From an uncultured Bacteroidales bacterium (GTDB lineage Bacteria > Bacteroidota > Bacteroidia > Bacteroidales > P3), in NCBI GenBank assembly GCA_900316235.1, contig ONCC01000025.1, positions 1-64,000 on the forward strand: DNA of 64,000 bases, given 5' to 3'. The notes below the pieces were generated by a model. The model worked only from the letters and a program-made list of their open reading frames with translations, ran no database searches and had not been told where the DNA came from. Numbering within the stretch: position 1 is the stretch's first letter; each line of letters begins with the position of its first letter. Both the position numbers and the translations under genes were made by a program. Shown here one piece after another: positions 2,129-22,288 of the stretch.

Positions 2129-2157
2129 TACTGTTTTAAATATTTTTCGTATCTTTG
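2129..2157 (+). promoter_or_regulatory. Bacteroidota-type promoter of the BREX operon
   Basis: TATCTTTG at 2150-2157 fits the -7 consensus TAnnTTTG exactly, with an AT-rich tract (TTTTA, about 2125-2129) at the -33 distance. It lies about 175 bases upstream of the first codon of brxP, and no other good promoter is seen before brxC, so it probably drives the whole operon. Confidence 0.55.
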
Positions 2158-2332: not shown

Positions 2333-4810
2333 GTGTACAAAGTTGTTTGGGACAAAGATATAAACGGGGTGTTGTTGCAGAGCCTCGTGACCAGAGAGAC
2401 CCTCGGGGTGTCGCCGCGTCCGGTGTTCTTCGAGGAGTTGGATCTGCTGGGACTTGACAAGCTTGGGTGGAAGTACCCTCGCTGTCAGGAACCGCTGATG
2501 TGGGCGTGCAACAAGCAATATTTCTACTGCGGCCAGTTGCTTTTCGAAGCGAAGGGGGCCAATATCTACGATGCTGCTACGGTGGTTCCTGCCGAAGGTG
2601 TGAAGCCGATGTCGCTGAAGCCGGCGAACATGAAGAAAATGTTGGAGCGCAACCGCGAGGCGATGTTCCTGCTGGAAAGCGAAGCCATCGAGTTTATCCG
2701 CGACACTTATGAGACCTACACCCGTGCCAGTCGTGCTGTGGAGGCCAATGTGATTGACTATGAAGAGTTGGCCGCCCGTCAGCAGAAGAAGACGAAGCAG
2801 AAGATGGCTGTGGTGAAGGAGGATTGCGACAGTTTCGACATTATGCCTGCCGACGAAGCCGAGTTGAAGGGCAAGAAGGTGTTGCACACCACCAAGGTGG
2901 ACATCTTCCTCGCCTCGTTCAGTGGAGGCAAAGACTCGCAGGTGGTGTTAGACCTCTGCACGAGGGCGCTGCCTCCGAGTGCTTTCCAGGTCATCTATAG
3001 CGACACCGGCTATGAGTTGCCTTCGTCGCTTACGTTGTACGAGCAGGTGAAGGAGCATTATGGCAAGCTCTATCCCGACCTCAAGTTCAGTACTGCCCGT
3101 AACCACGAGCAGGTGCTGAACTACTGGGACAAGATTGGTACTCCCAGCGATACACACCGTTGGTGTTGCTCAATAATGAAAACTGCCCCTCTTTACAACA
3201 CCTTCAAGCAACATAACACTAATCAGCAAAATCGAATTCTCACATTCGATGGTGTACGTTCAGAAGAAAGCCAAAAGAGGTCTGGGTATCAGAGAATCGG
3301 TAAAGGAAAGCATATTGGAATATACAATGCTCATCCAATATTAGATTGGAACACAACGGAAATAATGCTTTATCTGTTCAAACAGAGTTTGCATATTAAC
3401 CAGTCTTACCGAGACGGGAAGGCAAGAGTTGGATGCATAATATGCCCATTCTCTACTGCATGGGATGATATGATAGTGCAAAAGACCTATCCCAAAGAAT
3501 TAGAACCTTTTGTTGAAAGGATTGAAAAATGGGCAAAATCGAGTGGGATAAAAGATACTACAGATTTTCTAAAAGACCGAAGATGGAAGTTGAAAATTCT
3601 TGGCAACAAAGTCAAGCCTCATGTTGAACTGGTTCAGAAAGGACAGACACTCTCGGCGACCATTTCTCATCCATCAACACCTCTTCAAACTTGGATTCAA
3701 ACAATAGGTGACGTTTCGATGAATGGTGGTGTTGGAGAACTAAGGTTTGAAGGGAAGGTCTATTCTTTCAAGATAATCCAAGATAAAAGGGACGTCCTTG
3801 ATTTCACAATAGACATCGCAAATAACACAAAATTACTCTACTTCATAAAGAGAGCAATAAACAAAAGTGCATATTGTGTTAAATGTGAAGTCTGTACAGC
3901 AGAATGCCCAACAGGCGCTTTAGACATTTTGTCGGACAATATTATAAACAAAGACTTATGCATCAAATGTCATAAGTGTTTGGAATTTCACGAGCAGGGT
4001 TGTATAGCCGCTGACTCAGTTAGAATGGTAAATTTTGTAACAAAGAAAATGAACGCAAAATTAGCTGCTTACAAAAAGTTTGGTTTACGTGAAGAATGGG
4101 TTAGTGAGTATTTTGCATCCCCGGAGGATTTCTGGGATGCCAATTATCTTGGTACTGCAATGGTAGATAGTGCCAAACGGTGGTTCAAAGATGCTGGTGT
4201 TATTGATGACAAGAATAATATTACAGCATTTGGTCAGTTACTCCATGAATTATATATGGATAACCCCGATTTGGTATGGGAACTATTATTGATAGGGCTG
4301 TCGTATAACTCATTTATTGTAAACTGGTTCGTCAATCATGTAAGTCTAAATCAGCGGTATGACAGAAAAATGCTATTAGACGAACTGATAGAAATCCCTC
4401 TTGAAGCATCAAATACCACCAGAGATAATGCGCTAATTGCAATAATGGACATGTTCGACAAATCCCCATTAGGAGAGACAATGGGATTGGCAATTCCGGA
4501 GGACAAAATATATATCCGAAAGGAATACGGGGATTCGAGTAATGCCGCAATTGCGTATTGCATTTATCGTTTTGCGGACAATCTTGGTGTAAAAACATTA
4601 CGTGTTTCTGACTTTTATAGTGGTGAATGCGAAAATGGACCTTTACAAATACTAGGAGTCACAAAAAGTAAATTTGAAAAGGCTCTTCGGGAGATTAACT
4701 CAAGTTCAAATCGAGTATTGATAGCAGAGTTATCTATGGGACTTGATCATATTACATTACGTGACGATATCAGTTCAGAAAATGTTATTCAAATCATGCT
4801 TGGTTTATGA
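2333..4810 (+). CDS. brxP: BREX type 4 protein BrxP: PAPS-reductase-like domain with ferredoxin-type clusters
   Basis: 825 residues. An N-terminal region conserved in the family (PVFFEEL at 31-37, PLMWAC at 54-59) precedes an ATP-pyrophosphatase domain with the PP-loop SFSGGKDS at 195-202, the conserved RWCCSIMKTAP at 276-286 and a C-x2-C pair at 368/371. Cysteines 515, 518, 521, 525 and 543, 546, 549, 557 form two 4Fe-4S ferredoxin-type motifs. The domain is related to PAPS reductase and to DndC, which activates DNA for phosphorothioation. The gene heads a brxP-brxC-pglZ-brxL series that defines type 4 BREX. The start is GTG, close after an in-frame stop at 2324, with no clear ribosome-binding site. 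Composition changes sharply near codon 281: 35 of 60 bases are G or C at 2941-3000 against 17 of 60 at 4201-4260, suggesting a recombination joint within the gene. Confidence 0.85.
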   Translation: MYKVVWDKDINGVLLQSLVTRETLGVSPRPVFFEELDLLGLDKLGWKYPRCQEPLMWACNKQYFYCGQLLFEAKGANIYDAATVVPAEGVKPMSLKPANMKKMLERNREAMFLLESEAIEFIRDTYETYTRASRAVEANVIDYEELAARQQKKTKQKMAVVKEDCDSFDIMPADEAELKGKKVLHTTKVDIFLASFSGGKDSQVVLDLCTRALPPSAFQVIYSDTGYELPSSLTLYEQVKEHYGKLYPDLKFSTARNHEQVLNYWDKIGTPSDTHRWCCSIMKTAPLYNTFKQHNTNQQNRILTFDGVRSEESQKRSGYQRIGKGKHIGIYNAHPILDWNTTEIMLYLFKQSLHINQSYRDGKARVGCIICPFSTAWDDMIVQKTYPKELEPFVERIEKWAKSSGIKDTTDFLKDRRWKLKILGNKVKPHVELVQKGQTLSATISHPSTPLQTWIQTIGDVSMNGGVGELRFEGKVYSFKIIQDKRDVLDFTIDIANNTKLLYFIKRAINKSAYCVKCEVCTAECPTGALDILSDNIINKDLCIKCHKCLEFHEQGCIAADSVRMVNFVTKKMNAKLAAYKKFGLREEWVSEYFASPEDFWDANYLGTAMVDSAKRWFKDAGVIDDKNNITAFGQLLHELYMDNPDLVWELLLIGLSYNSFIVNWFVNHVSLNQRYDRKMLLDELIEIPLEASNTTRDNALIAIMDMFDKSPLGETMGLAIPEDKIYIRKEYGDSSNAAIAYCIYRFADNLGVKTLRVSDFYSGECENGPLQILGVTKSKFEKALREINSSSNRVLIAELSMGLDHITLRDDISSENVIQIMLGL

Positions 4811-5244
4811 ATGACTTGTTGTTCAGTTTCTACAAGACGGCATTCCTCTCGATTGTCAGAGGCAATCATCGTGGTGTAGTTATCAATGCAAAGCCATTGT
4901 ACTATATCACAATCATTGACCTGATTGACAAAGGAGAAGAAGTACTAAACAATAAAATACCATTCTCTGAGATTCTGAACGAAGCATACTTAAGCATTTG
5001 CAAAGAATATCAACCAGATATTGTTCCCACACCCCTCTTCAAACCTTACTATTACTCAAAAAACGAGCATTTTTACCATCTGAAATTCAAGCAAAAGCCA
5101 CCTAACATTGGGCCTTCTGCAAAGTTCATTCGTGATAATATCGAGTATGCTTACCTGGATAATGCATTATGGGACCTACTACAAGTGCCTGAAGTACGGC
5201 AGCAGCTGCGTGAGGCTCTGGTGACACACTTCCTTACACGATAG
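4807..5244 (+). CDS. Small protein resembling the ScoMcrA-type DNA sulphur-binding domain
   Basis: 145 residues, start ATG overlapping the brxP stop (ATGA), so translationally coupled. The pattern AKPLYYITIIDLIDKG, then NKIPFSEI, FYHLK, and the end AYLDNALWDLLQVPEVRQQL followed by LREAL..HF is that of the N-terminal domain of McrA-type HNH endonucleases, the domain which in ScoMcrA binds phosphorothioate DNA. No HNH or other nuclease motif is present, so if the assignment holds this is a stand-alone reader or adaptor. Its place between a DndC-like BrxP and BrxC fits recognition of sulphur-modified DNA. The first two-thirds are AT-rich like the end of brxP; the last 30 codons are GC-richer like brxC. 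The family call rests on pattern memory and should be checked by profile or structure comparison. Confidence 0.6.
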   Translation: MNDLLFSFYKTAFLSIVRGNHRGVVINAKPLYYITIIDLIDKGEEVLNNKIPFSEILNEAYLSICKEYQPDIVPTPLFKPYYYSKNEHFYHLKFKQKPPNIGPSAKFIRDNIEYAYLDNALWDLLQVPEVRQQLREALVTHFLTR

Positions 5245-5282
5245 AGAAAAACAAATTGATTCGATAATAACAACCACAAGAT

Positions 5283-8200
5283 ATGGCAATAAAAACCTAC
5301 TGGGATGCGGTACAAATCCGCGAAGGAAAGCCCGCCTACAATATTGAAATGGAAGAGGCCGGCAACTGGGAGAGTTTCCTGCCTAATCAACAATTTAACG
5401 AGATTCTGCTCAAGGCCATCGGCTCTGTGCGGAACAACGATATGGACAAACACCGCTCACTGTGGATTGAGGGTACCTATGGTACGGGCAAGAGCCATGC
5501 TGGCGCGGTGCTGAAACATCTGCTTTGCGACAATGTGGAGGAGATACGCCAATGGGTGGACGAGGAATATCGCGACACGCAGTACGACCTGCTACGCAAG
5601 CAAATCTATGGGCTTCGCGAGAAAAAACGCCTGATGCCTGTCACCTTGGTAGGACAATGTGGTATCTCGAATAAAGAGGATCTTGCGCTGGTGCTACAGA
5701 CGCGCATCCAGAAGGCTTTGCAAGCCAATGGCATCGAACTGGATATTCGCACCGACTACGACAACTATATCCAGCACATAGAACATAACGCCAGTTTCTG
5801 GGATTTGACCATTGCTGCCGACGGAGAGCTACGTTCCATAGCTCCCGACCGCAAAAGGCTGGTGAAGCTGCTACGGGATTACGACGGCGCAACATTGAGG
5901 ACGGCAAAGGATGCCTGTCGCCGACAGGGGCTTAGTGTGCGTTTGCGTCAGGAGAACCTCAACCGCTGGTTCTTTGAAGTACAGAACCTGCTGCGCGAGA
6001 AGACCGCCTATAACGGCCTTCTGGTAGTGTGGGATGAGTTTACCGATGTGGTGAAATCCGAACTTGGAATATCCATTCTGGTAGAGCTGCAGCTATTGGC
6101 AGAGGAAGCCATGAATGCTGAAAACGACAGCTACTTTCTTTTTATCTCCCATCCGTCGGCACTCGACCGCCTTAGTGCACAGGAACGCACAAAGACCATT
6201 GGGCGCTACCATTATCTGCACTACAATATGGAGCCGGTGTCGGCTTTCAAGATAATGAGCCGCAAGTTCCGTCAGATAGTTCCTCTAAGCGAGGTGACTG
6301 CATCGGCAACATTCTATTTCGAGGCGAAAGACCTCTACACGCAGTTGGCTCAAACAAGCAACCAACCGGCAGAAACAGAAAAAGACCTCAAGAATCTTTT
6401 CCCGTTGCACCCAGCCACCGCCAACTTGGCTACCTACTACGCCCGTGAGGTGGGTTCGAGCAGCCGTTCTGTGTTCGACTTCCTGGCCAGCGACCCAGTA
6501 CGAGAGTTTCTGAATGATCCCAAAGTATTCAAACAGGGAGAAACCATCACGGTGGATTACCTGTGGGATTACATCATGCCCGAGATGCAGCAGAACGTAA
6601 GCAAGTTCGGTGTGGTGAACGAAAGATACAACTCATACCAGAAAACGGTGGAGCATCAGGGAGATGCTACCATTCGAGTGTTTAAGGGTATATTGCTGCT
6701 AAATGCTTTCAACAATATAGCCAATACCGAAACAGTCACTCCGAGCGAAGAGAACATTGCCAATTTGTTCTTGGGTACCACCGTCGAACCTCAGCTGAAC
6801 GATATTCTCGGATGGCTGAACGAAGCAGGTGTTATCCAGCGTTCACCGGCTGGGTTGTACGAGATACGTTTCTCGGCATTGCCGCTGGGTGAGGTGAACG
6901 ACATCAAGCAAAACCTCAAACTGACAGAGTTCAGATACACCTACAACATACTTCGTGCTTTCAATATTGCCCGCACGGTTATTGATAAGAAATTAGCCAA
7001 TGTCGCACGTCCATATTGGCTTGAGTTTTTCTCGTTGGATTCCAATGAATATACACTCTTGGGAAGTGTGGAACGTGCAGCGAAAAAGGTTCAGGGGTAT
7101 GAATTGATGTTGGCTATGTTCTTCGCCCGCAATGCCGACGAACTGATAGAACTGCGACAGATAGCAGAAAAGGCTTCGAAAGACGAAGACGGGAAATACA
7201 ATGACGTTGTATTCTTGGTGATGGATAAGACTTTGGGTGATGGCGAATACGAACGATTCATAGAATATCAAGCCAACGCCCAATGCGCCCAACGGCATGG
7301 TTTTGCCGACCAAATGAAATCGCATACCGATAACGCCGAACAGATGGTGAAAGAATGGGTGGAGAGTGCAATGAGAGGAATTGCATACATCTCTATAGGC
7401 GGCAAACAAATGAGCACATCGGAAACGCTCAGTATAGATGCTGGAAGAATCACCTCATTCATCAATAGCAGCATCGCCCCGATGATTTTCCCCGCAGGTC
7501 CCGAGGGATTGGAACTGATACGCCTGAAATCTTCCACCACCTACTGGAAGAAGCAGTTTGTAAAAGCCACTGTGGAAGCCGTACTGCAATTCAATACGAA
7601 GCAGGAGGTCTGTGACCGCTGCAAAGGTCCGGCGATGCATATGAACTTCCTGCTACAGGACAGCGTGGACGAGAACCTGCAATTCAAGGACGATGTCGAC
7701 CCCAACCATCCGTTGGTAAAGATCTGTAAGTTTGTGAAGAGCAAGATTGACCATGCGGACAAGTCGGCCAACTTCAACCTCTCATATCATTTGGAGGCAT
7801 TGACCAAGCCACCCTACGGATTGTTCCCCTCGCATGCGGGTATGGGAATGGTAGCTTTTGCGTTGCGTCCCTATATTGGTAAGATATTTGACCTCAACGG
7901 AAAGCCCCGTACGGCCAAGCATCTGGTGGATGATGTGGCGGAACTGTTCAAAGTGTGGGACGGTGGTGGAAACCGCAACAAACTTGAGTTCAAGTTCCAA
8001 ACCAAAGAGGAAGGTCAGCTTGCAAAGCAATTCATTAATCTGTTTAAGCTCAATACGCTGAAAGACTACCACGACGTGAGCAGCTTGACCGATGCCCGCT
8101 GGGCACTTACACATGCCTATTTGAAAGAGAAGGGTGCGCCTCTATGGGGATTGAAATACTGCAAAGCAATGCCCAACAATGCAATGCGCAACAGCTTGTG

Positions 8201-8744
8201 CCAGATTGTGGACAACCTTCTGCGTATATGCGAACCTGATGGAATGAAGAATCCGGCTTTGATGACGGAAACACTGGAATTGCTGAAAAACTATGACTTT
8301 GAGTTCCGCAGTTTACTCACCGTCACCGAAAAACAAAACAACTTCATCGAGGGTTATGAGCAGTTCTTGTTCTCTCAAGACAAAGTGGGGTTGAAACCCA
8401 ATGAACTGGATGAAGCTAAACTTTATGTGCAGCAAAATATGCAGGCGGAAGTGGGATTATGGACGGAAGCAGATGTGGCAGAGAAGTTGAAAGACTGGAG
8501 GCTGAGCCAGATGTCGCACACAAATCTATCCAGTCGTAATACTATCCGAATTGTCGACAAGATAGATCTCGAAGGCGAAAGTAAAGTTGCAGAAGATACC
8601 ACTAAGTATGGGTCACAAGAAAAAGTGGCAAAGGCTCGCGGAAGGGTGAATGGTATTAAAACATTGGATGAGGCCAAGAGGCTGCTCAATAGAATTACCG
8701 AGTTGGAAATTGAAGATGTATTGGAAGTTCTGATAAACGATTGA
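5283..8744 (+). CDS. brxC: BREX ATPase BrxC
   Basis: 1153 residues, the usual size for BrxC/PglY-type proteins. The Walker A motif GTYGTGKS is at 64-71 and the Walker B-like LLVVWDEF at 246-253; the rest is a long, mainly helical region without other recognisable domains. A CDRC pair near residue 777 could bind metal. BrxC is a core component of BREX and is thought to power DNA handling by the modification or exclusion complex. The gene follows the small reader-like gene by 38 bases and precedes pglZ by four. The ATG start is fixed by the conserved N-terminal segment before the P-loop. A sample at 5881-5940 has 37 of 60 G or C, unlike the AT-rich segment just upstream. Confidence 0.88.
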   Translation: MAIKTYWDAVQIREGKPAYNIEMEEAGNWESFLPNQQFNEILLKAIGSVRNNDMDKHRSLWIEGTYGTGKSHAGAVLKHLLCDNVEEIRQWVDEEYRDTQYDLLRKQIYGLREKKRLMPVTLVGQCGISNKEDLALVLQTRIQKALQANGIELDIRTDYDNYIQHIEHNASFWDLTIAADGELRSIAPDRKRLVKLLRDYDGATLRTAKDACRRQGLSVRLRQENLNRWFFEVQNLLREKTAYNGLLVVWDEFTDVVKSELGISILVELQLLAEEAMNAENDSYFLFISHPSALDRLSAQERTKTIGRYHYLHYNMEPVSAFKIMSRKFRQIVPLSEVTASATFYFEAKDLYTQLAQTSNQPAETEKDLKNLFPLHPATANLATYYAREVGSSSRSVFDFLASDPVREFLNDPKVFKQGETITVDYLWDYIMPEMQQNVSKFGVVNERYNSYQKTVEHQGDATIRVFKGILLLNAFNNIANTETVTPSEENIANLFLGTTVEPQLNDILGWLNEAGVIQRSPAGLYEIRFSALPLGEVNDIKQNLKLTEFRYTYNILRAFNIARTVIDKKLANVARPYWLEFFSLDSNEYTLLGSVERAAKKVQGYELMLAMFFARNADELIELRQIAEKASKDEDGKYNDVVFLVMDKTLGDGEYERFIEYQANAQCAQRHGFADQMKSHTDNAEQMVKEWVESAMRGIAYISIGGKQMSTSETLSIDAGRITSFINSSIAPMIFPAGPEGLELIRLKSSTTYWKKQFVKATVEAVLQFNTKQEVCDRCKGPAMHMNFLLQDSVDENLQFKDDVDPNHPLVKICKFVKSKIDHADKSANFNLSYHLEALTKPPYGLFPSHAGMGMVAFALRPYIGKIFDLNGKPRTAKHLVDDVAELFKVWDGGGNRNKLEFKFQTKEEGQLAKQFINLFKLNTLKDYHDVSSLTDARWALTHAYLKEKGAPLWGLKYCKAMPNNAMRNSLCQIVDNLLRICEPDGMKNPALMTETLELLKNYDFEFRSLLTVTEKQNNFIEGYEQFLFSQDKVGLKPNELDEAKLYVQQNMQAEVGLWTEADVAEKLKDWRLSQMSHTNLSSRNTIRIVDKIDLEGESKVAEDTTKYGSQEKVAKARGRVNGIKTLDEAKRLLNRITELEIEDVLEVLIND

Positions 8745-8748
8745 CATT

Positions 8749-11151
8749 ATGTTTCAACAATGTGAAAGTCTGGCTGACCTGATGGCTGCACTGGATGACG
8801 ACCGGTGTCAGAAGGGTGCGGGAGCATCAACGCGCGACCGCTTCCCAGTGAGGCTGCTACTATTCGACAATTTCCGTGACTGCTGTAGCTTTATTGAAGA
8901 GCAGCAGAACAGGATTCCCATGACCTTCATAAGCATCGACAAATGGATGGATGAAGAATATCCTGATACCCTTATTACCCACACCACTTTGGAAAGGAAG
9001 GTAAGAGAAACCATCCATGGGCATAGTAGCGAACATTTGCTGATTACTCCACTCTCGGAACTGGCAAGATTCTACGACAATAGCGAGCCGAGATTTGAGT
9101 TCAACGCATTGATAGGCACCATTCGTGGCATTGAGGCCTCTACAGAAGGTGTGGATTTTCACCAGCGCGTGTATATCCCCATCATAGGATTGGAGAGCAA
9201 AACGGAGCGATTCCGTGAGCAGAGCCAGTCGTTCATCTACTACTTCCATAATAGCGACCGTCAACTGAACTACCGCTTGGTATTGACGAGTAATACCACC
9301 TATGGAGTACGTGATGTGGAACGACACTACAATATCGCTCCAACGGTGACGGAATGGCTAAGATGCTGGCGCTATCCGGAATTGAAGCCCAATATTATCT
9401 GCACCTCTTCGGCCATTTTTGCCAATGCAGGACACGCACAACCCGACAACGCATTCAGCTATTGCATCTGCAACAACGCTTACCAGTTTCTGCACGATGC
9501 ATTGGATGTCAAACTGCCACATTGTGAATATCGCGAGGAAGACAGCCAATACTGGGAACAACTGGCAACAGAGATAAACATTGAAGACTTCGATTTCGAC
9601 AACTATTTTGCCAGACGTTTCGGTATTTACGAACTGGCTGAATATAGCAGTTTCTACCGCCTTTGGTTTGACAACAATAGCAGTTTTGACCGCTGGCTTA
9701 TCTCCATGTATTATCGCGACCGCTTTTGCGAAAAAGGATACATCTGTCGAGTTCTGGCCACGATGGATGACTATACGACACCTCGATTCCTTGAACAGAT
9801 AGCACTTCACATATTCACCCTTGAGGAGGAAGCATACGATTATCTCGAAGAGCGAAAGAGTGGTATGGAAGAGGCCGTGCGGAGAGGTGTCGTTCTGTCG
9901 CCCACAGCACAGACGATGCTGGCTGAACGACTGCAAAAGGTGGCTGAAAGGGATGGATACGCTACAGCGCTGCGATTCTTTACTCATGCTACGGACGTAG
10001 AAAAGCGACTTGTCATTGAGTGGTACAATGGCGGTCATATTGTACAAACCGACCTAAAGAGACTATATCCCGATCTGTTTTATTATTTAACCAACACACA
10101 ACTATCGACGGAAGTTACTTGGTTGACCCAATATATTGAAGAGTACAAATACGCCAAATTAGCGGGCAAGTATTCCAAGGATATGGAGGAACGTATTTCG
10201 AGCGTCAATGCATCGGAGGCTTCTTTCCACGATTGGTACGACCGCTTCTCGACTGTGAAAACCGTGATGAGTGGACGCACAGACATAAACGTCTATTTCT
10301 GGATAGACGGATTAGGGTTGGATTGGGTACCGCTAATACAGCAGGTGGTGAAGGAACGCGAAAATGATGGCTACTACCTCAACGAGGTGCTGGTGGCTCG
10401 TGCGAAACTACCCACCAGAACGGAGAACAACAAAGAAGACTTACAACAATTGGGTGGTGTTCTTTTGGAAAAGATAGGCGACCTTGATTCGCTTGCACAT
10501 ACCATAAGAGAATATCCGCAGTATATTATTGACGACATAGCTGCGGTACGTAAAGCCATCAATACTGTTTTGGATGCACATCCGAAGCAGAAGATAGCCA
10601 TAGTGAGCGACCATGGAATGACCTACTTGTCGCAGATGGTTGATGGGAGAAACCTCAAAGGTATTGAGAGTGACCATTACGGACGTTGTGCGGGTTGTAA
10701 GAAAGGCATTGTGGCCGACGAGTATTATCTGCGCATCAACGAGGGAAAAGAATTGGTGGCATTACGACACAACTCCCTTAGTAGAAAAGTGGCAGAAGGG
10801 ACTGGAGCCCACGGTGGTGCAACACCCGAAGAGGCACTTGTACCCATCATTGTTATTTCGGACAAAAAGGAATCGAGACATTGGACGGCCAAACAGATTA
10901 CAACCTCGCTGAACGCTTCCAATCCAATATTTGAGGTTGCTTTTGTGGGATTGCAATCAAACGAAACACCAAGCCTCCTCTACAATGGGAAGAGCTACAA
11001 GCTGAGAAAGGAAGATGCAAGTTATAGAAGTGAGAGGCTGGAATTAAACCCTGATGTAAAACAAGTGACAGTAATCGTTGGATTGCATAGTGAGACTTTT
11101 GATGTGGAATTGCAACTGGCCGTAAAAGAAAACGATATAATGGATTTCTAG
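8749..11151 (+). CDS. pglZ: BREX protein PglZ (alkaline-phosphatase superfamily)
   Basis: 800 residues with a C-terminal PglZ domain. The metal-binding and nucleophile regions of the alkaline phosphatase superfamily are visible as VYFWIDGLGLDW from about residue 515, IAIVSDHGMTYL around 620 and GAHGGATPEEALVP from 686. The N-terminal 500 residues are family-specific. PglZ is shared by all BREX types; it is needed for both modification and defence, but its reaction is not settled. It follows brxC by four bases and precedes brxL by three, so the three are surely cotranscribed. Cysteines just before the last motif (CAGC) may bind metal. Confidence 0.88.
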   Translation: MFQQCESLADLMAALDDDRCQKGAGASTRDRFPVRLLLFDNFRDCCSFIEEQQNRIPMTFISIDKWMDEEYPDTLITHTTLERKVRETIHGHSSEHLLITPLSELARFYDNSEPRFEFNALIGTIRGIEASTEGVDFHQRVYIPIIGLESKTERFREQSQSFIYYFHNSDRQLNYRLVLTSNTTYGVRDVERHYNIAPTVTEWLRCWRYPELKPNIICTSSAIFANAGHAQPDNAFSYCICNNAYQFLHDALDVKLPHCEYREEDSQYWEQLATEINIEDFDFDNYFARRFGIYELAEYSSFYRLWFDNNSSFDRWLISMYYRDRFCEKGYICRVLATMDDYTTPRFLEQIALHIFTLEEEAYDYLEERKSGMEEAVRRGVVLSPTAQTMLAERLQKVAERDGYATALRFFTHATDVEKRLVIEWYNGGHIVQTDLKRLYPDLFYYLTNTQLSTEVTWLTQYIEEYKYAKLAGKYSKDMEERISSVNASEASFHDWYDRFSTVKTVMSGRTDINVYFWIDGLGLDWVPLIQQVVKERENDGYYLNEVLVARAKLPTRTENNKEDLQQLGGVLLEKIGDLDSLAHTIREYPQYIIDDIAAVRKAINTVLDAHPKQKIAIVSDHGMTYLSQMVDGRNLKGIESDHYGRCAGCKKGIVADEYYLRINEGKELVALRHNSLSRKVAEGTGAHGGATPEEALVPIIVISDKKESRHWTAKQITTSLNASNPIFEVAFVGLQSNETPSLLYNGKSYKLRKEDASYRSERLELNPDVKQVTVIVGLHSETFDVELQLAVKENDIMDF

Positions 11152-11154
11152 GTT

Positions 11155-12576
11155 ATGAAACAAGAAATTGCCGAAAAAGTACAGACATACCTGAAGGATG
11201 TCGCCATCTATAAAGATAGTGCCACTACTAACACGTTTTTCAGTGGACGCAATCTTCCTTCTTTTGTAAAGGACTTTCTGCTACGTCGCTACTCAAACGG
11301 GAGCGAAGTGGATGCTGGTGGATTGAGCAGGTTTCTCTCCGAGATGATGCCCAAGGGTAACATCAAACGTATGCTTCACGAAGGGCAGGAGGTGAAACTG
11401 CTGACTCGATTCACGGTGAATATCGACCTCAGGAACAACATCTGCCGTTTCGGTATTCCTGAACAGGGAATTGGTGAAAACGAGGGAATCATTCCGATGC
11501 GTCTCACAACGAAATATCCTGAGCTGGTGGATGGAGAGATGTGGGGTATCATCAAGATTTGTCTGATGCCAAACGACAACGGGAAAACCAATCATGTGGA
11601 GATGATTGACTTCCGTCCTTTCAAGCCGTTTACCGACATCAACATAGATTTCTTCCAGGAGGCACGTCGTCATTTCACACTTGAGGAGTGGATTGACCTG
11701 ATGCTTTCGTCGATGGAGTACGAGCCGGATGCTTTCCAAGGTATGCGTCAGAAGCTGGAATTCCTCACGCGACTGCTTATCTTTGTGGAACCCCGTCTGA
11801 ACATGATTGAGCTGGCACCGAAAAGTACGGGCAAATCGTATGTGTTCAACAATATCAGCAAATACGGCTGGCTGGGAAGCGGCAAAATCACCCGCGCAAA
11901 GATGTTCTACGACCTCTCGAAGAAGCAGCCAGGCATATTGATGAAACGCGACTTCGCGGTGCTCGACGAGGTGCAAACCATCATTATGGCGGAACCTGCC
12001 GACCTGCAAGGTGCTTTCAAATCGTATCTAGAACAGGGCAAAGTTTCTATCGCTGACCAGAACCTCACCTCGGAATGTGGCATGATGCTGATGGGTAACA
12101 TCGCGTTGACAGAGAACCGGAAACCACGCTCTCTGCGCTATTTTGACGAGTTGCCGGATACCTTCCGAGAGTCGGCACTCATCGAGCGTTTCCATTGTTT
12201 CATTGAAGGCTGGTTGCTGCCGCGTATCGACACGAGTATGCTTTACAAGGGCTGGACGCTCAACATCGAGTATTTCTCAGAGATAATGCACATGATGCGA
12301 GTGCAGAGCAACTACGGAAGACTCTACGACAAACTGATAGAATACGACCCCAGCGACATGCGCGACTTCACGGCCATTAAACGAATTGCGACGGCGTATA
12401 TGAAGCTGCTGTTTCCACATTGGGTGGACGAGAAGGATGTCAACATGGAGGAGTTTGACACCTACTGCTTACAACCTGCTATTGCCCGTCGCCGCATCAT
12501 CATCGAGCAATGCCAACTGATTGACCCCGAATACTCCGTCCGCATGCCGAATATCCATGTGAAAGAGGTGAGTTAA
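11155..12576 (+). CDS. brxL: BREX protein BrxL, short form (AAA+ ATPase without Lon protease part)
   Basis: 473 residues. Walker A is APKSTGKS at 221-228, followed by a Walker B-like AVLDEVQTI and the conserved MGNIALT and ALIERFHCFIEGW segments of BrxL. E. coli-type BrxL is about 680 residues because it adds a C-terminal Lon-like domain; this one ends soon after the ATPase, with no Ser-Lys protease dyad. BrxL is a ring-forming DNA-associated ATPase required for phage exclusion in type 1. It is the last gene of the canonical type 4 set. No frameshift remnant of a protease domain follows; the DNA after the stop is a different, AT-rich gene, so the short form seems genuine. Confidence 0.82.
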   Translation: MKQEIAEKVQTYLKDVAIYKDSATTNTFFSGRNLPSFVKDFLLRRYSNGSEVDAGGLSRFLSEMMPKGNIKRMLHEGQEVKLLTRFTVNIDLRNNICRFGIPEQGIGENEGIIPMRLTTKYPELVDGEMWGIIKICLMPNDNGKTNHVEMIDFRPFKPFTDINIDFFQEARRHFTLEEWIDLMLSSMEYEPDAFQGMRQKLEFLTRLLIFVEPRLNMIELAPKSTGKSYVFNNISKYGWLGSGKITRAKMFYDLSKKQPGILMKRDFAVLDEVQTIIMAEPADLQGAFKSYLEQGKVSIADQNLTSECGMMLMGNIALTENRKPRSLRYFDELPDTFRESALIERFHCFIEGWLLPRIDTSMLYKGWTLNIEYFSEIMHMMRVQSNYGRLYDKLIEYDPSDMRDFTAIKRIATAYMKLLFPHWVDEKDVNMEEFDTYCLQPAIARRRIIIEQCQLIDPEYSVRMPNIHVKEVS

Positions 12577-12612
12577 TATAGTTTATTTGTCAAAAACATA
12601 AAAAGAGCCATT

Positions 12613-13143
12613 ATGAACAGAGATTCATTTCTAAGTAAATATAGACAATCAAGTTTATACCTATGTCAATATTTCCTTGACCCCAATAGATGGGATGTAG
12701 TTCCCAGTGAGATAAGAGACACCCTTCGAAAACAAGCGTGGTCTAATTATATAAAATATTTAGATGCTGATGGTAATCTATCAAAAGAACTTGATTTGTT
12801 ACCAGAAAACGAAGGAGGTATTTATATGTTTTTCATTCAAGGGCAAACTCTACCCGAATTTGAAATGTATCCAGCATACATTGGTAGAGCATTATGTACA
12901 GAAGGACAAAACATCCAGAAAAGAGTTAAATGCTATTTACGAGAGAGCAGGGGAAAGAATCGGCCTAAAATAATAAATCTGTTTGAGTCATGGAAAGACT
13001 TTCTTTACATAAAGTATTTTCATACGTCGGACAATGCGTTAATTGACGTTGGAGAAAAGGTACTTATTCGCTCCATCCTACCTCCATTTAATAGTGAAAT
13101 TCCAGATAGAATCAAATTCAGAACCCCCCAAAAAGCATTTTAA
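12613..13143 (+). CDS. GIY-YIG family nuclease
   Basis: 176 residues. All key positions of the GIY-YIG fold are present: GIY at 69-71, YIG at 89-91, Arg104, Glu148 and the final PPFN with Asn160. The arrangement, with a proline-rich N instead of extra DNA-binding domains, recalls Eco29kI-type single-domain restriction enzymes. No separate specificity domain is visible. It begins 36 bases after brxL and its stop is five bases before the DGQHR gene, so the pair forms a unit. It is distinctly AT-rich (19 of 60 G or C at 12721-12780) compared with brxL. A role as the restriction or phage-DNA-cleaving arm of the locus is an inference from position. Confidence 0.75.
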   Translation: MNRDSFLSKYRQSSLYLCQYFLDPNRWDVVPSEIRDTLRKQAWSNYIKYLDADGNLSKELDLLPENEGGIYMFFIQGQTLPEFEMYPAYIGRALCTEGQNIQKRVKCYLRESRGKNRPKIINLFESWKDFLYIKYFHTSDNALIDVGEKVLIRSILPPFNSEIPDRIKFRTPQKAF

Positions 13144-13147
13144 TATT

Positions 13148-14410
13148 ATGAATTCAGTTAACATACCCGCCATTCGTGGCGTAATCGGTGATATGGTTTT
13201 TTATACCACAACATTTACATTTACCCAAATATCAGAGCGTGTCAAAAAAATTGATGATGAGCTCCACACATCAAAGTCATTAAATGAACAATTACAACGT
13301 GCTTTAACTTCAAATTTTCAAAGCATTTCGGATTATATTATTACGCAAAAGGAGCACTTTTTTAATTCCTTGGTTTTAGCAATATACGACGGAGATCCTG
13401 AATGGAATGAAATGGAAGTAAACTTCAAAGGTGAAGACTATTATTCCATGGGATTTCTAAAATTGAACGGAGAAGAGAAAATATTTCCAGTTGATGGACA
13501 GCATAGGGTTGAAGGGATAAAAGATGCATTAATTCGTAATCCCGAACTTAAAGATGAATCTATCTCGGTAATTTTAATTGGTCACCATAAAGACAAAGAG
13601 GGAATGGAAAAAACCAGAAGGATTTTTTCCACATTAAACAGATATGCCAAACCAGTATCTACTGGTGATATTATTGCCTTGGACGAAGACGACACTGTAG
13701 CCATTGTCACTAGAAAATTGCTGGAAAGCTTTCCTCTTTTTATGAACGAGAGAATCAGCGATGATAAAAAAACTAAGGCAATAGCAGAGAAAGACATGAA
13801 GTCGTTTACTTCTCTTATTAAATTGTATGAAACAAACCGAGAAATCTACAAATATTATACATCCTTCCGTGACAGAACAAAAAGACCATATACAAAAACG
13901 AGAATAGATACATTCTTAAGGTTTAGGCCTGCACAGGAAGAAATAGATAACTTTGAGAGGTATCTTACTGTTTTCTGGACACATTTTAGTGGTACTTTTG
14001 ACGGCATGAAAGAATATCTTGCATCAAATGAAGAAATCCCCGCTGCAAAATTCAGAAATCGCGAGGTCGGTGGCCTGCTATATTTCAGACCTATTGCATT
14101 ACCTCAACTTGTTATATCAATATTGGAGTCTTGTTTTAGGAAGAACAAACCTCTTTCAGAATGTATGTCGGACTATTCCAAATTAGAGATGTGTATTTCA
14201 AAGGAACCCTGGAAGAATGTTTTATGGGATGCAACTAACAGAACAATGATAATGAAAAATGCCACAATGGTTCATCTATTGTTAATGTATATGTATGATG
14301 ATAGTATTTTAAAGAAAACTGAGTTGGAGAGCTTAAAATCCCGTTATGCAAAAGTACTGGAAATAGACCTGTCGGAAATAGACGATAAACTTAGGTCGTT
14401 ACGATCATAA
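13148..14410 (+). CDS. DGQHR domain protein, DndB-like
   Basis: 420 residues from the ATG five bases after the nuclease gene; the frame stays open upstream into that gene, but no homology is seen there. The signature FPVDGQHRVEGI has DGQHR at 116-120, followed by a TLNRYAKPVSTGDII segment as in DndB and other DGQHR proteins. DndB is a regulator in phosphorothioation operons; DGQHR proteins also occur in other DNA modification and defence loci. Found here behind a BrxP with a DndC-like domain, it strengthens the link to sulphur modification. It is AT-rich like the nuclease gene and ends the operon; no T-rich hairpin terminator is visible after it. Confidence 0.75.
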   Translation: MNSVNIPAIRGVIGDMVFYTTTFTFTQISERVKKIDDELHTSKSLNEQLQRALTSNFQSISDYIITQKEHFFNSLVLAIYDGDPEWNEMEVNFKGEDYYSMGFLKLNGEEKIFPVDGQHRVEGIKDALIRNPELKDESISVILIGHHKDKEGMEKTRRIFSTLNRYAKPVSTGDIIALDEDDTVAIVTRKLLESFPLFMNERISDDKKTKAIAEKDMKSFTSLIKLYETNREIYKYYTSFRDRTKRPYTKTRIDTFLRFRPAQEEIDNFERYLTVFWTHFSGTFDGMKEYLASNEEIPAAKFRNREVGGLLYFRPIALPQLVISILESCFRKNKPLSECMSDYSKLEMCISKEPWKNVLWDATNRTMIMKNATMVHLLLMYMYDDSILKKTELESLKSRYAKVLEIDLSEIDDKLRSLRS

Positions 14411-14690: not shown

Positions 14691-15521
14691 ATGTATTTTT
14701 CTAACGTATATAATATTATGATTGGCTCCCCTTCTGATATTCAAGAAGAGGTCACTACTGCAATAAATGTAATCAACCGATGGAATTATATTAATTCAAG
14801 ATCAACTAATATTGCGTTAATCCCGCTGCATTGGTCATTTAGTTCTTACCCAACATCTATCGCCCCGCCACAGAAGTCAATCAACAAACAGTTGGTTGAA
14901 CAGAGCGACTTGATGATTGCTATCTTCGGTACAAAAATTGGGACACCAACCGACACCGAAATAAGTGGAACTGTTGAAGAAATAAAGGAACACATTAAAG
15001 CAGGGAATGACGTAATGCTGTTTTTTAAATTGTCTAGCGAAGACATTACCTCCATTGAGCCACAACAGTTACAAAAAATAAAGGATTTTAAAGCTAGTAT
15101 AAAAGACAACGTTTTATGGTGTGATTTCACAAACAATGATGATTTCAAGCAGAAGTTATACGATAAAATTCAACTATATATTAATAACAACTGGAAAGAT
15201 TCACAAACAGTCTCACGTGTTATATATGCCCCTTCAGATCAATTGCAACTATCTGATGAGGAAAAACAACGTTTGATAGACTGGACCAACGAAAGTAATG
15301 CAGAATCAGTAAGTTTTTCTTTTAATAGAGGTTATCTATATCGTTTAGGGTACAAACAATACGAAGTGAACGAAGGTCGAGAAAATGCCGAATGGGAAGA
15401 CTTCTTCAAACGTCTTAAAAAAGCAAACTTCATAGAACTTGAAAGATACAATAAAGACGGGCGCCCGATATATAAATTAACTAAGGCTGCCTACGACTAT
15501 GTCGATGAATTGCAGAAGTAA
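14691..15521 (+). CDS. DUF4062 domain protein with winged-helix-like C-terminus
   Basis: 276 residues. The N-terminal half is a DUF4062 domain, a Rossmann-like fold related to TIR domains: VYNIMIGSPSDIQEE at 6-20, the SFSSYP segment, and QLVEQSDLMIAIFGTKIGTP near 65-85. In most proteins DUF4062 heads a STAND NTPase; here the rest is about 90 residues ending in an ERYNKDGRPIYKLT segment that looks like a winged helix. No NTPase, nuclease or membrane part is seen. It is AT-rich and separately placed from the BREX operon. DUF4062 proteins are common in defence islands; a nucleotide-sensing or effector role is plausible but not shown. Confidence 0.7.
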   Translation: MYFSNVYNIMIGSPSDIQEEVTTAINVINRWNYINSRSTNIALIPLHWSFSSYPTSIAPPQKSINKQLVEQSDLMIAIFGTKIGTPTDTEISGTVEEIKEHIKAGNDVMLFFKLSSEDITSIEPQQLQKIKDFKASIKDNVLWCDFTNNDDFKQKLYDKIQLYINNNWKDSQTVSRVIYAPSDQLQLSDEEKQRLIDWTNESNAESVSFSFNRGYLYRLGYKQYEVNEGRENAEWEDFFKRLKKANFIELERYNKDGRPIYKLTKAAYDYVDELQK

Positions 15522-15558
15522 CAAATGTGCTTTTTTTACATTGCATATTAAAACACAC

Positions 15559-15566
15559 TAACTTTG
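15559..15566 (+). promoter_or_regulatory. -7 promoter element of the AbiH gene
   Basis: TAACTTTG matches TAnnTTTG, with a T-rich tract about 20 bases upstream. Because transcription would begin near 15572, translation must start at the ATG at 15588 and not at the in-frame TTG inside this element. Confidence 0.6.
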
Positions 15567-15587
15567 CTTTATGCCCAGAATGGTTAT

Positions 15588-16688
15588 ATGAATAGAATTG
15601 TACTTATAGGCAACGGTTTCGATATAGCACATGGACTCAAAACCAAATATGAGGATTTCATTATTTGGTATTGGGAACAATGTGGAATAAGATTGTCAGA
15701 ATGCCAGTCGGAGAGATATGAGGATGAATTATGCTCATTTGAGCTATTGGGTGATCACCGATTTTTGGGTTGGAACTGGGTGGCAGATACTTATATGAAG
15801 AAATTATTAAACCCCAATCAATTTGATGGATATTGTTTTATACAATGGGCAAGGAAATTACGGTATTGCGTCATCGAATATAAAAGTGAACTATTTAAGA
15901 GAATAAGCCAAAGCGTCGAGTCTAAGAAATGGGTGGATATTGAAAATATCTACTACGAGATTCTAGTTCGGGAAAAAAGTTTTGGCGACAGATACAAGAT
16001 CCTAAATAACCAGCTGGACTTTTTGAGAGGAAAGTTAATAGAGTACTTGCTTGAAATAGAAAAAAGTGATTTTACATTGATTGAGAGTATTAAAGAAAAA
16101 ATATTTCGTCCCATCAAAAGATGCGAGGTGTCGGTTAGATATCGTTATAAGACTGAAGATTTCTTTACACTCTCGAATATCATGTTGCTAAACTTCAACT
16201 ATACTAGCACCCCTGAAATATACTTGGATGGCGAGGCAACAATCAACTATATACATGGAAAATTAGACAATCCCCAAAGTGTGATTTTTGGCTATGGGGA
16301 TGAGTTGGACGAGAATTATAAGAGGCTCAAGGAGCAAAATGATAGCGAGTGTATGCGTCATGTGAAGTCCATCCGATATCTGGAACACGACAACTACCGG
16401 CGCATGCTCGAGTTCATCGAGTCGGACTCTTTCCAAGTCGTCATTATGGGGCACTCCTGTGGCAATAGCGACAGAACATTGCTTAACACCATCTTTGAAC
16501 ACCCCAACTGTGTATCGATAAAGCCATATTATTACCAGATAGACGACAGAACAGACAACTATTCCGAATTGACAATAAACATCAACCGAAACTTCAACGA
16601 CCCCAAACTGATGCGCGACCGCGTAGTATGTAAAGACTACTGCGAACCACTAACAGGAGTAAAACCTGGCGTAGTTGTAATGGGATAA
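15588..16688 (+). CDS. AbiH family abortive-infection protein
   Basis: 366 residues from the ATG chosen below the promoter. The opening NRIVLIGNGFDIAHGLKT is the signature of AbiH, followed by the family's FNYTSTPEIY, YIHGKL, FGYGDELDENYK and, near residues 287-295, MGHSCGNSD. AbiH was named for phage abortive infection in Lactococcus; its activity is unknown, though the N-terminal motif looks like a nucleotide-binding loop. The gene stands alone. The first two-thirds are AT-rich (23 of 60 G or C at 15661-15720) while the end is GC-rich (33 of 60 at 16381-16440), with the change at about 16350, which suggests that the conserved 3' part came from another allele. Confidence 0.85.
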   Translation: MNRIVLIGNGFDIAHGLKTKYEDFIIWYWEQCGIRLSECQSERYEDELCSFELLGDHRFLGWNWVADTYMKKLLNPNQFDGYCFIQWARKLRYCVIEYKSELFKRISQSVESKKWVDIENIYYEILVREKSFGDRYKILNNQLDFLRGKLIEYLLEIEKSDFTLIESIKEKIFRPIKRCEVSVRYRYKTEDFFTLSNIMLLNFNYTSTPEIYLDGEATINYIHGKLDNPQSVIFGYGDELDENYKRLKEQNDSECMRHVKSIRYLEHDNYRRMLEFIESDSFQVVIMGHSCGNSDRTLLNTIFEHPNCVSIKPYYYQIDDRTDNYSELTININRNFNDPKLMRDRVVCKDYCEPLTGVKPGVVVMG

Positions 16689-16730
16689 TAAATGGAAGAT
16701 GCACATGAATATGGTATGTAAAAACGAATG

Positions 16731-16785
16731 TGTAAATCTTGAACAATTGATTGCTTGAACTGAGGTCGACGACCCTGTGAAGCCA
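16731..16785. repeat. Dispersed repeat, copy A
   Basis: The 38 bases 16731-16768 match 18807-18844 with three differences, and 16757-16785 (GAACTGAGGTCGACGACCCT and nine more bases) match 27249-27277 inside the flippase gene with three differences. So one repeat family is found between genes and within a coding sequence. Confidence 0.8.
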
Positions 16786-16894
16786 ACATTTGAATGCGGA
16801 AATGTGTAAATGCGTAAACGTGTTAGTGAATAACAGAATGTACTAATGTGTAAATGCGTGAGTGAAATTGAATATTTAATTTAAATAAAACCCG

Positions 16895-16902
16895 TATCTT
16901 TG
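16895..16902 (+). promoter_or_regulatory. -7 promoter element of the AlbA_2 gene
   Basis: TATCTTTG, an exact match to the Bacteroidota consensus, 77 bases upstream of the start codon and preceded by AT-rich DNA. Confidence 0.6.
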
Positions 16903-16979
16903 CACCGGAAATGGAGAATGTAAAATGCGTGAATGTGCGACTGTGTGAATGCGTGAGTAACCATGTAAAAAAATGAAAT

Positions 16980-18485
16980 ATGGCACTGCCAATTAACATT
17001 GAAGACTTGCTGAATAAGCACAAAGTTGAAAGTAACCGAATTGAATTTAAGAAGGGTTGGAATCCAACAAAGATATACCATAGTATCTGTGCCTTCGCAA
17101 ATGATTTTGACAATATAGGTGGTGGTTATATCCTTGTTGGTGTTGAGGAGAAAGACGGGATTGCTGTACGTCCAGTGACGGGAATACCATTAGATCAACT
17201 TGACAAAATACAGCGTGAAATGGTGAACTTCAACAATATGATGGATCCATTCTACTCTCCTCGCATATCTGTAGAAGAGGTCGATGACACTCACATTCTC
17301 GTAATCTGGGTTCCAAGCGGAATAAATAGACCCTATGCAGTACCAACAGATGTGAAATCAAAACACAAACAATACGCCTACTATATCCGCTATGGTACCA
17401 CATCAATAGAGGCAAAAGGGGAAAGACTTGACGAACTTCGAGAGATGGCCAATAGGGTGCCTTTCGATGACAGAGGTAACCCTGATATCCAAGCAACAGA
17501 TATTTCCACGACGCTGTTGCGTGATTACCTTGTGACTGTCAACAGCCGCTTGGCCAATGAGAATCTAACAGGTAATCTTCTGGACATCTTGGAGCAAATG
17601 AACTTGCTGGAAGGCCCTACAGAAAAACGCATGATAAAGAATGTCGCAGCGATGATGTTCTGCGACCAGCCGACAAAGTTCTTCCCCGTTTCTCAAGTGG
17701 AAATTGTAACATTCCCAGAAGGGAGAGAGAGAAATCCAAATAATCTTGTTGAAGCACCAATTATTAAAGGGTCCGTACCTTATATGATTCGTGAGGCGCT
17801 AAACTATCTTCGCACAAATGTGATTAAAGAACAAATAATTAAGCCGAAGGACGATGAGAGGTCAATACGGTTCTTTAATTATCCTTATCAAGCATTGGAA
17901 GAGGCCGTTGTCAACGCATTATACCATAGGAATTACCAACTAAGAGAACCCGTTGAAATTACCATAGAGCCCGAGAGAATCACAATCCTTAGCCATGCTG
18001 GCCCAGATCGTTCTATCAGTTTAAAGGCCATAAAAGAAGCGAAAATATTGCGTTCACGACGTTATCGCAACCGTCGTCTCGGTGAGTTCTTGAAAGAACT
18101 AGACTTGACCGAGGGGCGCGCAACAGGTATTCCCACCATACAGGAAGAGCTCCGAAAGAATGGTTCAGGAAAGGCCGTTATTGAAACCGATGACGACAGG
18201 ACTTATTTCTTGATGGACATACCCTGTCATCCATATTGGCATCAAAATGTCGAGAAGGAGAGTTTAAATGATATGGTAGAAAATAACATATTATCCTCTC
18301 GTCAAAAACAAATCATTCAGTTGATTCAAAACACCCCTCATGTTACACAGATTGAGATGGCAAGAAAACTTAATGTAAGCCGACAAACCATTTATAGAGA
18401 TATTACATATTTGGCTTCTATAGAGATAATTGTAAGAGAGGGATCTAATAAAAAAGGCTATTGGATTATAGCTGATTTACAATAA
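16980..18485 (+). CDS. AlbA_2/Schlafen-like ATP-binding regulator
   Basis: 501 residues in three parts: an AlbA_2 (Schlafen-like) domain from about 12 to 135, opening with ESNRIEFKKGW and IGGGYILVGVEE; an HATPase_c_4-type ATP-binding domain with EEAVVNALYHRNY and GRATGIPTIQEELRKNG, about 295-405; and a C-terminal helix-turn-helix with QIEMARKLNVSRQTIYRDI, about 450-475. Proteins of this build are common in Bacteroidota, usually annotated as putative transcriptional regulators or RNA-binding proteins; related Schlafen-like proteins act in antiviral defence in other hosts. It lies in a defence island, alone in its transcript. The last two codons and the stop are part of a 12-bp tandem array, and a relic of a paralogue with the same end lies about 1 kb downstream. 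Confidence 0.8.
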   Translation: MALPINIEDLLNKHKVESNRIEFKKGWNPTKIYHSICAFANDFDNIGGGYILVGVEEKDGIAVRPVTGIPLDQLDKIQREMVNFNNMMDPFYSPRISVEEVDDTHILVIWVPSGINRPYAVPTDVKSKHKQYAYYIRYGTTSIEAKGERLDELREMANRVPFDDRGNPDIQATDISTTLLRDYLVTVNSRLANENLTGNLLDILEQMNLLEGPTEKRMIKNVAAMMFCDQPTKFFPVSQVEIVTFPEGRERNPNNLVEAPIIKGSVPYMIREALNYLRTNVIKEQIIKPKDDERSIRFFNYPYQALEEAVVNALYHRNYQLREPVEITIEPERITILSHAGPDRSISLKAIKEAKILRSRRYRNRRLGEFLKELDLTEGRATGIPTIQEELRKNGSGKAVIETDDDRTYFLMDIPCHPYWHQNVEKESLNDMVENNILSSRQKQIIQLIQNTPHVTQIEMARKLNVSRQTIYRDITYLASIEIIVREGSNKKGYWIIADLQ

Positions 18486-20853: not shown

Positions 20854-20871
20854 TCAGTCGTTTTGTTATTA

Positions 20872-20889
20872 GTTATATTTGAATATAAC
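20872..20889 (-). promoter_or_regulatory. Palindrome upstream of fabD
   Basis: GTTATATT-TG-AATATAAC, 19 bases before the fabD start codon. Its position fits an operator or a 5' leader hairpin; there is no direct evidence for either. Confidence 0.35.
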
Positions 20890-20929
20890 GAGAACCACGG
20901 TAAGATATTGTGTGGCACATTATAGATTA

Positions 20930-22285: not shown

Positions 22286-22288
22286 TTC

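Follow-up and report, generated by a model that had tools for sequence, protein, structure and literature searches.

The window analysed here is a 64,000-nucleotide stretch of contig ONCC01000025.1 from an uncultured Bacteroidales bacterium. It carries an operon at positions 2333-14410 in which the four genes of a type 4 bacteriophage exclusion (BREX) system stand together with three further genes: one for a DNA sulphur-binding domain (SBD), one for a GIY-YIG nuclease-like protein (GIY) and one for a DGQHR protein. All seven open reading frames (ORFs) are intact and on the + strand, with intergenic spacing from -4 bp (an overlap) to +38 bp, in the order brxP-SBD-brxC-pglZ-brxL-GIY-DGQHR:

2333..4810, + strand: brxP, GTG start; PP-loop (PAPS-reductase-like) sulphur transferase with a 4Fe-4S ferredoxin-like part and a C-terminal DUF4007 (SspB-like, DNA-binding)
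4807..5244, + strand: free-standing SBD of 145 amino acids, likely phosphorothioate (PT) reader, by homology to SBDHga1
5283..8744, + strand: brxC, AAA+ ATPase, SspC-like (PADLOC), Walker A motif GTYGTGKS
8749..11151, + strand: pglZ, BREX-4 alkaline-phosphatase-superfamily protein (NF033445, 1.5e-196)
11155..12576, + strand: brxL, Lon-like AAA+ protein (PF13337, 4.9e-105; PF20442, 2.8e-20)
12613..13143, + strand: GIY-YIG nuclease-like protein of 176 amino acids, catalytic set conserved in homologues
13148..14410, + strand: DGQHR protein (ParB/Srx-superfamily NTPase) of 420 amino acids, partner of the GIY-YIG protein (PF14072, 4.6e-31)

The start of the DGQHR gene was placed at ATG 13148, and not at the mechanical TTG 13043, because the homologues begin there. 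The identical seven-gene order was found in two further Bacteroidales genomes (loci L007 and L173 in our numbering), and the pattern is therefore beyond chance.

Type 4 BREX core and probable DNA sulphur modification

PADLOC recognized all four core proteins with high-scoring models (E-values of 3e-255 for BrxP, 0 for BrxC, 1e-206 for PglZ and 7e-190 for BrxL), and PglZ also matched the NCBIfam model “BREX-4 system phosphatase PglZ” (NF033445). No PglX-type methyltransferase was found in the operon by inspection of the ORF list and library scans. With brxP, brxC, a type 4 pglZ and brxL together in one operon without PglX, and in the same order as in known systems, these four genes are an ordinary type 4 BREX core, as an earlier sequence-only reading of this DNA had proposed. 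BrxP contains PF01507 (2.8e-31), PF13182 (DUF4007, 2.3e-6) and Fer4 domains. Its SGGKDS PP-loop and eight ferredoxin cysteines are invariant across 16 BrxP proteins, so that the PP-loop and the iron-sulphur cysteines are intact and DUF4007 is fused to them. BrxC also matches the PADLOC model for SspC (2e-21). In the literature, BrxP is related to SspD plus SspB (DUF4007) and BrxC to SspC, and the cysteine dyad of DndC is absent from BrxP (PMC12839542). The sequence-only reading had related the PP-loop of BrxP to DndC: the PP-loop itself stands, and the protein is closer to an SspD fused to DUF4007.

The same reading had linked type 4 BREX to PT modification, which is already on record. PMC11931770 and PMC12839542 both cite Yuan et al. 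as having reported PT writing on host DNA by type 4 BREX, and the former, citing Yuan et al. 2024, presents brxPCZL as a third PT synthesis family. Judged from its sequence, the operon of the window probably adds sulphur, in the form of PT, to the cell's own DNA. A linked cysteine desulfurase is present in 56% of type 4 BREX loci (PMC12839542). ORF and library scans detected none within this operon, and a desulfurase of the operon's own was rejected as sulphur source. Two Aminotran_5 (cysteine-desulfurase-type) genes lie elsewhere in this genome, consistent with the sulphur supply by housekeeping enzymes described in PMC12839542. Besides having no linked desulfurase, the window differs from the known type 4 BREX layout by the SBD between brxP and brxC and by the GIY-DGQHR pair after brxL.

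A free-standing sulphur-binding domain within the writer genes

A single-sequence PDB search with the SBD protein retrieved SBDHga1 (8h0l, E 6.7e-7) and no other match of note. With a profile of eight BREX homologues, the E-value against the same structure was 5.4e-23, and the homology extends across the whole domain. Among these eight homologues 12 columns alone are invariant, including A28, K29, P30 and P80. The sulphur pocket of ScoMcrA consists of H116, R117 (Lys in most homologues), Y164, P165 and A168, with R117 and P165 being essential (PMC6224610). In our residue matching, made via the alignment with SBDHga1, K29 aligns with R117 and P80 with P165. Because of the SBDHga1 homology and the retention of the pocket Lys and Pro, the SBD likely binds PT, and its earlier description as a ScoMcrA-SBD-like protein holds. 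Most of the SBDs known so far are joined to an HNH nuclease that cleaves PT DNA (PMC6224610, PMC7461809), whereas the SBD of the window is free-standing, carries neither SRA nor HNH and lies inside a PT-writer operon; it also has Ala in place of His116.

No second SBD match, and hence no SBD-HNH enzyme, was found in this genome; a scan of viral contigs with the SBD alignment gave no relatives. The SBD was also considered as the type 4 BrxA, which was rejected since the literature gives the BrxA role to DUF4007 (PMC12839542). Free-standing SBDs without BrxP (E ~1e-36) were observed in two genomes of one genus (G101 and G286; L077 2662-3186 and L078 15487-15975). The one in L077 lies near a restriction-type gene, and these genes could possibly encode SBD-only readers.

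The distribution of the extra genes was evaluated in about 850 genomes and in records of plasmids, phages and viruses. The BrxP profile limit was set at 1e-60 because looser E-values match ordinary PAPS-reductase/ferredoxin proteins in most genomes. One tree was built of 21 distinct BrxP loci, which came from named and sampled genomes and from the plasmid, phage and viral records. The sampling is biased to close relatives, and the locus fractions given here are therefore not population frequencies. An SBD gene is located directly 3' of brxP, before brxC, in nine loci (the window, L001, L002, L005, L007, L008, L047, L056 and L173). All belong to one Bacteroidales BrxP clade of 13 loci (support 100/100), with none among the eight loci outside it. 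On the BrxP tree the presence of the SBD amounts to three changes, consistent with a single gain followed by loss on two occasions. Plasmid searches with BrxP yielded Methanosphaera only, without an SBD.

These data bear on the possibility that the SBD has lost its sulphur-reading role and serves the BrxP-BrxC writer complex as a structural subunit. Its gene stands among the writer genes of the operon, four loci of the SBD-bearing clade do without it, and the position of ScoMcrA His116 is Ala in all eight homologues. The pocket Lys and Pro are nevertheless invariant although most of the protein varies, and we hold a purely structural role to be rather unlikely.

A predicted GIY-YIG nuclease and its DGQHR partner

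The GIY protein of the window gave no Pfam GIY-YIG match by itself, while its homologue in locus L082 exceeds the Pfam cut-off (26.7 bits vs 22.6). Eleven homologues share G69, Y71, F73, Y89, G91, R104, Y108, E148 and P157, and N160 is nearly invariant, so that all six residues of the GIY-YIG catalytic set (Y71, Y89, R104, Y108, E148 and N160) are kept. The best PDB profile match, a weak one, was the GIY-YIG domain of UvrC (E 0.15). In the printed alignment the six residues are in register with Y19/Y29/R39/Y43/E76/N88 of UvrC, which we take to be its catalytic residues. The assignment reached 91.7% in hhalign, and Foldseek with a low-confidence model of the protein added weak support, the top match being T4 EndoII, a GIY-YIG enzyme (prob 0.94, E 0.029). 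The 176-residue protein is taken as a predicted, active-site-complete GIY-YIG nuclease, in agreement with the sequence-only reading.

The DGQHR protein satisfies the domain models PF14072 and TIGR03187 (7e-31) and fails the DndB equivalog model TIGR03233 (81 bits vs a cut-off of 328). Its motifs QR (50-51), DGQHR (116-120) and FxxxN (160-164) are invariant in 12 homologues. The same three motifs occur in the DUF262 domain of GmrS (PMC4619093), and the DGQHR-type domain is homologous to the DUF262 domain of GmrS, SspE and DndI (PMC4619093, PMC11662687). Library scans found no DUF262 or DUF1524 match in either GIY or DGQHR. DndB belongs to the same PF14072/TIGR03187 family (hhalign 99%), whereas the DGQHR proteins form a clade separate from it (support 100/100). 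The protein is best assigned to the DGQHR/ParB-like NTPase family and does not appear to be DndB itself.

The GIY-DGQHR pair occurs beside three classes of PT writers

Among 393 Bacteroidales genomes searched, five, including that of the window, carry a GIY relative. It adjoins SspB-SspC-SspD in three of them (L076, L082 and L083) and lies at a contig end, with unreadable context, in another (L085). Beyond Bacteroidales, the order desulfurase-DUF4007-SspC-SspD-GIY-DGQHR was found on the plasmid pROLI83 of Roseobacter litoralis (L169), and three near-identical Rhizobium Ti plasmids (L168, counted once) carry the pair with SspABCD plus SspFGH. In Rhizobium NXC14 (L170) and Salmonella Infantis SARB27 (L171) the pair adjoins dndBCDE. 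In plasmid and phage records, neighbours annotated as “hypothetical” were identified as GIY by profile search (E 1e-14 to 1e-21). A viral contig (L167) holds a GIY fragment and DGQHR with no readable writer. Overall, the pair stands beside a PT writer in 10 of the 10 loci with readable context (three type 4 BREX, five Ssp and two Dnd), and in each of them the GIY gene is immediately followed by the DGQHR gene.

The DGQHR and GIY trees agree and both join L007 (BREX) with L076 (Ssp), with supports of 100/99 and 98/99. A single clade for the three BREX pairs was rejected with the concatenated proteins (log-likelihood 17.5 lower; approximately unbiased (AU) test, p 0.003, a value that is somewhat optimistic because the tested group was chosen after seeing the tree). 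The pair moves as a unit and has been exchanged between BREX and Ssp. No SBD match was found in the Ssp genomes that carry the pair (G388, G114 and G176), and GIY-DGQHR is therefore independent of the SBD. That the pair accompanies each of the three known kinds of system for tagging DNA with sulphur points to a weapon which they share and can swap.

These loci also speak to the role of the DGQHR protein, which the sequence-only reading had called DndB-like. It could act like DndB, regulating transcription or limiting PT, the GIY-YIG protein being an incidental or separate nuclease and PT gating playing no part. The common Pfam/TIGR family favours such a role, as does the reported action of DndB as a negative regulator that depends on ATP (reviewed in PMC10853773). 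However, the Dnd loci of NXC14 and SARB27 each carry a DGQHR protein in addition to a true dndB, and the two proteins fall in separate clades. The DGQHR gene always directly follows the nuclease gene, with agreeing trees, and is found with Ssp and BREX writers too. As the protein coexists with true dndB, branches separately and pairs with a nuclease, we consider a DndB-type regulatory role unlikely. The family membership in the earlier description stands, and the implied DndB function probably does not.

A GHKL-type ATPase of about 815 residues is encoded near GIY-DGQHR at L083 6821-9274, L082 3470-5938 and L167 11581-14022. The HATPase_c_3 match is above the cut-off in L083 and weak in L167, and in some lineages this ATPase may join the pair as a third member.

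The slot downstream of brxL

Within type 4 BREX, GIY-DGQHR lies directly 3' of brxL in three loci (the window, L007 and L173), each time with the SBD present, while six BREX loci have the SBD without GIY. The pair is missing from L001, although its BrxP is 93% identical to that of the window, and the genomes of the remaining BREX carriers that were tested yielded no DGQHR relatives. Other genes follow brxL elsewhere: a helicase, a small protein and an ATPase in L005; a small protein and an ATPase in L008; and, in L087 and L057, a gene that by its sequence looks like a cysteine desulfurase. On the Methanosphaera plasmid pNP174 (L055), type 4 BREX is followed by a GmrSD-type (DUF262) protein at 20213-21925 with an SspE-like domain set. 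The slot downstream of brxL looks like a site of interchangeable accessory genes.

Three observations concern the surroundings of these cores. In L005 (21709-22511, after the helicase) and L008 (20295-22517), the genes 3' of brxL encode a protein of 91-95 amino acids and a large SMC/RecF-like ATPase. L008 gives weak matches to LmuB, PbeC and DndD here, and this could be another accessory module of the slot. In L001, an AAA_14/DUF4143 ATPase gene is inserted between the SBD and brxC (13032-14258), and a second, similar-looking ATPase gene (21804-22475) occupies the GIY-DGQHR position after brxL. Directly 5' of brxP, L002 (508-2751) and L007 (7891-10023) encode related-looking proteins of 710-747 amino acids, with only a weak match resembling the C-terminal domain of the RNA polymerase alpha subunit.

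The sequence-only reading would have been refuted had the extra genes been missing from other type 4 BREX loci, and they do occur there, the SBD in nine loci and the pair in three, window included. It had further supposed that the seven genes may form a distinct BREX subtype. The full set does recur, but the SBD is tied to one BrxP clade and the pair is portable and absent from L001. Because GIY-DGQHR is not BREX-specific and has moved between BREX and Ssp, we see in the seven-gene set a modular variant and not a new subtype of fixed composition.

The same distribution weighs on a PT-dependent, type IV-like arm, in which the SBD would guide the GIY-YIG protein to the PT DNA of other systems and restrict PT in the wrong motif. 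Such an arm would be in line with the usual fusion of SBDs to PT-cutting HNH nucleases (see above) and with the shared operon of SBD and GIY in the window, L007 and L173. Yet the cell probably writes PT itself, so that cutting PT DNA would be suicidal unless the motifs differ, and each part is found without the other: GIY-DGQHR in Ssp genomes without SBD and the SBD in six BREX loci without GIY. We therefore regard a type IV-like arm as quite improbable.

Genomic surroundings of the operon

About 175 bp upstream of brxP, a possible, weak Bacteroidota -7 promoter element was read directly from the sequence; no full -33/-7 promoter match was found near it:

2150..2157, + strand: TATCTTTG, possible Bacteroidota -7 promoter element (weak)

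After the operon, on the same strand (14691-18485), the window encodes a DUF4062 protein (PADLOC PDC-S60, 3e-24), an AbiH protein (1.5e-29) and an SLFN_AlbA_2/winged-helix protein. These three defence-type genes, unrelated to the operon, suggest a small defence island. GIY-DGQHR, and perhaps the SBD too, might then be independent defence genes located in the operon by happenstance, a possibility to which the absence of the pair from L001 also lends some weight. Hitch-hiking of this kind accounts poorly for the exact gene order in three genomes, the tight spacing and a PT writer of one of three classes adjoining the pair in every readable locus, and we give it very little credence.

A model of a PT writer, reader and effector in one operon

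We lean, by a modest degree, towards a type 4 BREX that unites writer and reader of PT with an additional, PT-linked GIY-DGQHR effector working like SspE or DndI. BrxP and BrxC, with sulphur from a housekeeping cysteine desulfurase, would most likely put PT on the host DNA, at sites whose sequence would be set by the DUF4007/BrxC part. The SBD, with no nuclease of its own, would bind these sites and most likely signal a self site to a BrxP-BrxC-PglZ complex, or feed back on the writer. PglZ and BrxL would be the core effectors. GIY-YIG and DGQHR would form a complex acting as an added two-gene effector, with the DGQHR protein as NTP-hydrolysing PT sensor (the counterpart of the DGQQR domain of SspE/DndI) and the GIY-YIG protein as nuclease (the counterpart of their HNH domain). 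This effector would be restrained on PT-marked host DNA and would nick or cut incoming DNA without PT.

The comparison rests on SspE and DndI being PT-gated NTPase-nickases, in which a ParB-like DGQQR domain senses PT, controls an HNH nickase and spares PT-marked DNA (PMC9646914, PMC11662687). GIY-DGQHR is read as an effector of this kind because it has the same two parts, on separate genes and with another nuclease, and keeps the same genomic company. In common with DndI, SspE and GmrSD (DUF262-DUF1524), it couples a ParB-like NTPase with a DGQ(H/Q)R motif to a nuclease and is linked to PT writers. Unlike them, it consists of two genes instead of one, belongs to the DGQHR instead of the DUF262 subfamily and would act through GIY-YIG instead of HNH. 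With no DUF262 or DUF1524, our claim is that the pair works like SspE/DndI, not that it is one of them. Compared with SspABCD-SspE and SspABCD-SspFGH, the BrxP of the window covers SspD and SspB (PAPS reductase and DUF4007), BrxC is SspC-like, and the pair itself is found beside SspBCD in five loci. The window has PglZ and BrxL in addition, and its sensor and nuclease are separate proteins, with GIY-YIG in place of HNH.

Several points weigh against the proposed effector. Type 4 BREX has been described as working without restriction-endonuclease activity (PMC11931770). The link of the module to PT comes only from genomic context, and direct hhalign of DGQHR against a GmrSD-type protein was weak (prob 10%). 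The AlphaFold model of the GIY protein is poor (pLDDT 46), and that of the DGQHR protein, built from a two-sequence alignment, was set aside (pLDDT 35). On the side of the reader, there is the Ala at the His116 position. Finally, the pair of SARB27 adjoins the DndI-like Orf5 and is therefore no simple replacement of a DndI-type effector; since both occur in that strain, the two effectors can be stacked.

In a broader reading, GIY-DGQHR would be a universal, portable PT-gated restriction effector for Dnd, Ssp and type 4 BREX, to which the BREX of one Bacteroidales lineage adds its own free-standing PT reader, uniting writer, reader, sensor and nuclease in a single operon. We view this tentatively, with slightly more doubt than belief. 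Type 4 BREX, its PT link, SBD-HNH fusions and DndB were already known, and a single line of PMC10853773 refers to GIY-YIG (URI) nucleases close to Dnd genes. The literature searched, which did not cover Yuan et al., yielded no description of a free-standing SBD inside type 4 BREX, of a DGQHR protein paired with GIY-YIG in PT systems or of a GIY-DGQHR pair common to BREX, Ssp and Dnd; within that literature, the free-standing SBD and the common pair are new.

No obvious restriction nuclease is known in type 4 BREX, and there is debate on how PT systems, in which few sites are modified, distinguish self from non-self. If the model is true, a PT reader in the writer operon and an effector common to Dnd, Ssp and BREX would provide a testable handle on both the missing nuclease and the self/non-self question. 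The free-standing SBD could also serve as a small PT-binding reagent. The swapping of the pair between BREX and Ssp suggests that all three classes of writer present the same signal.

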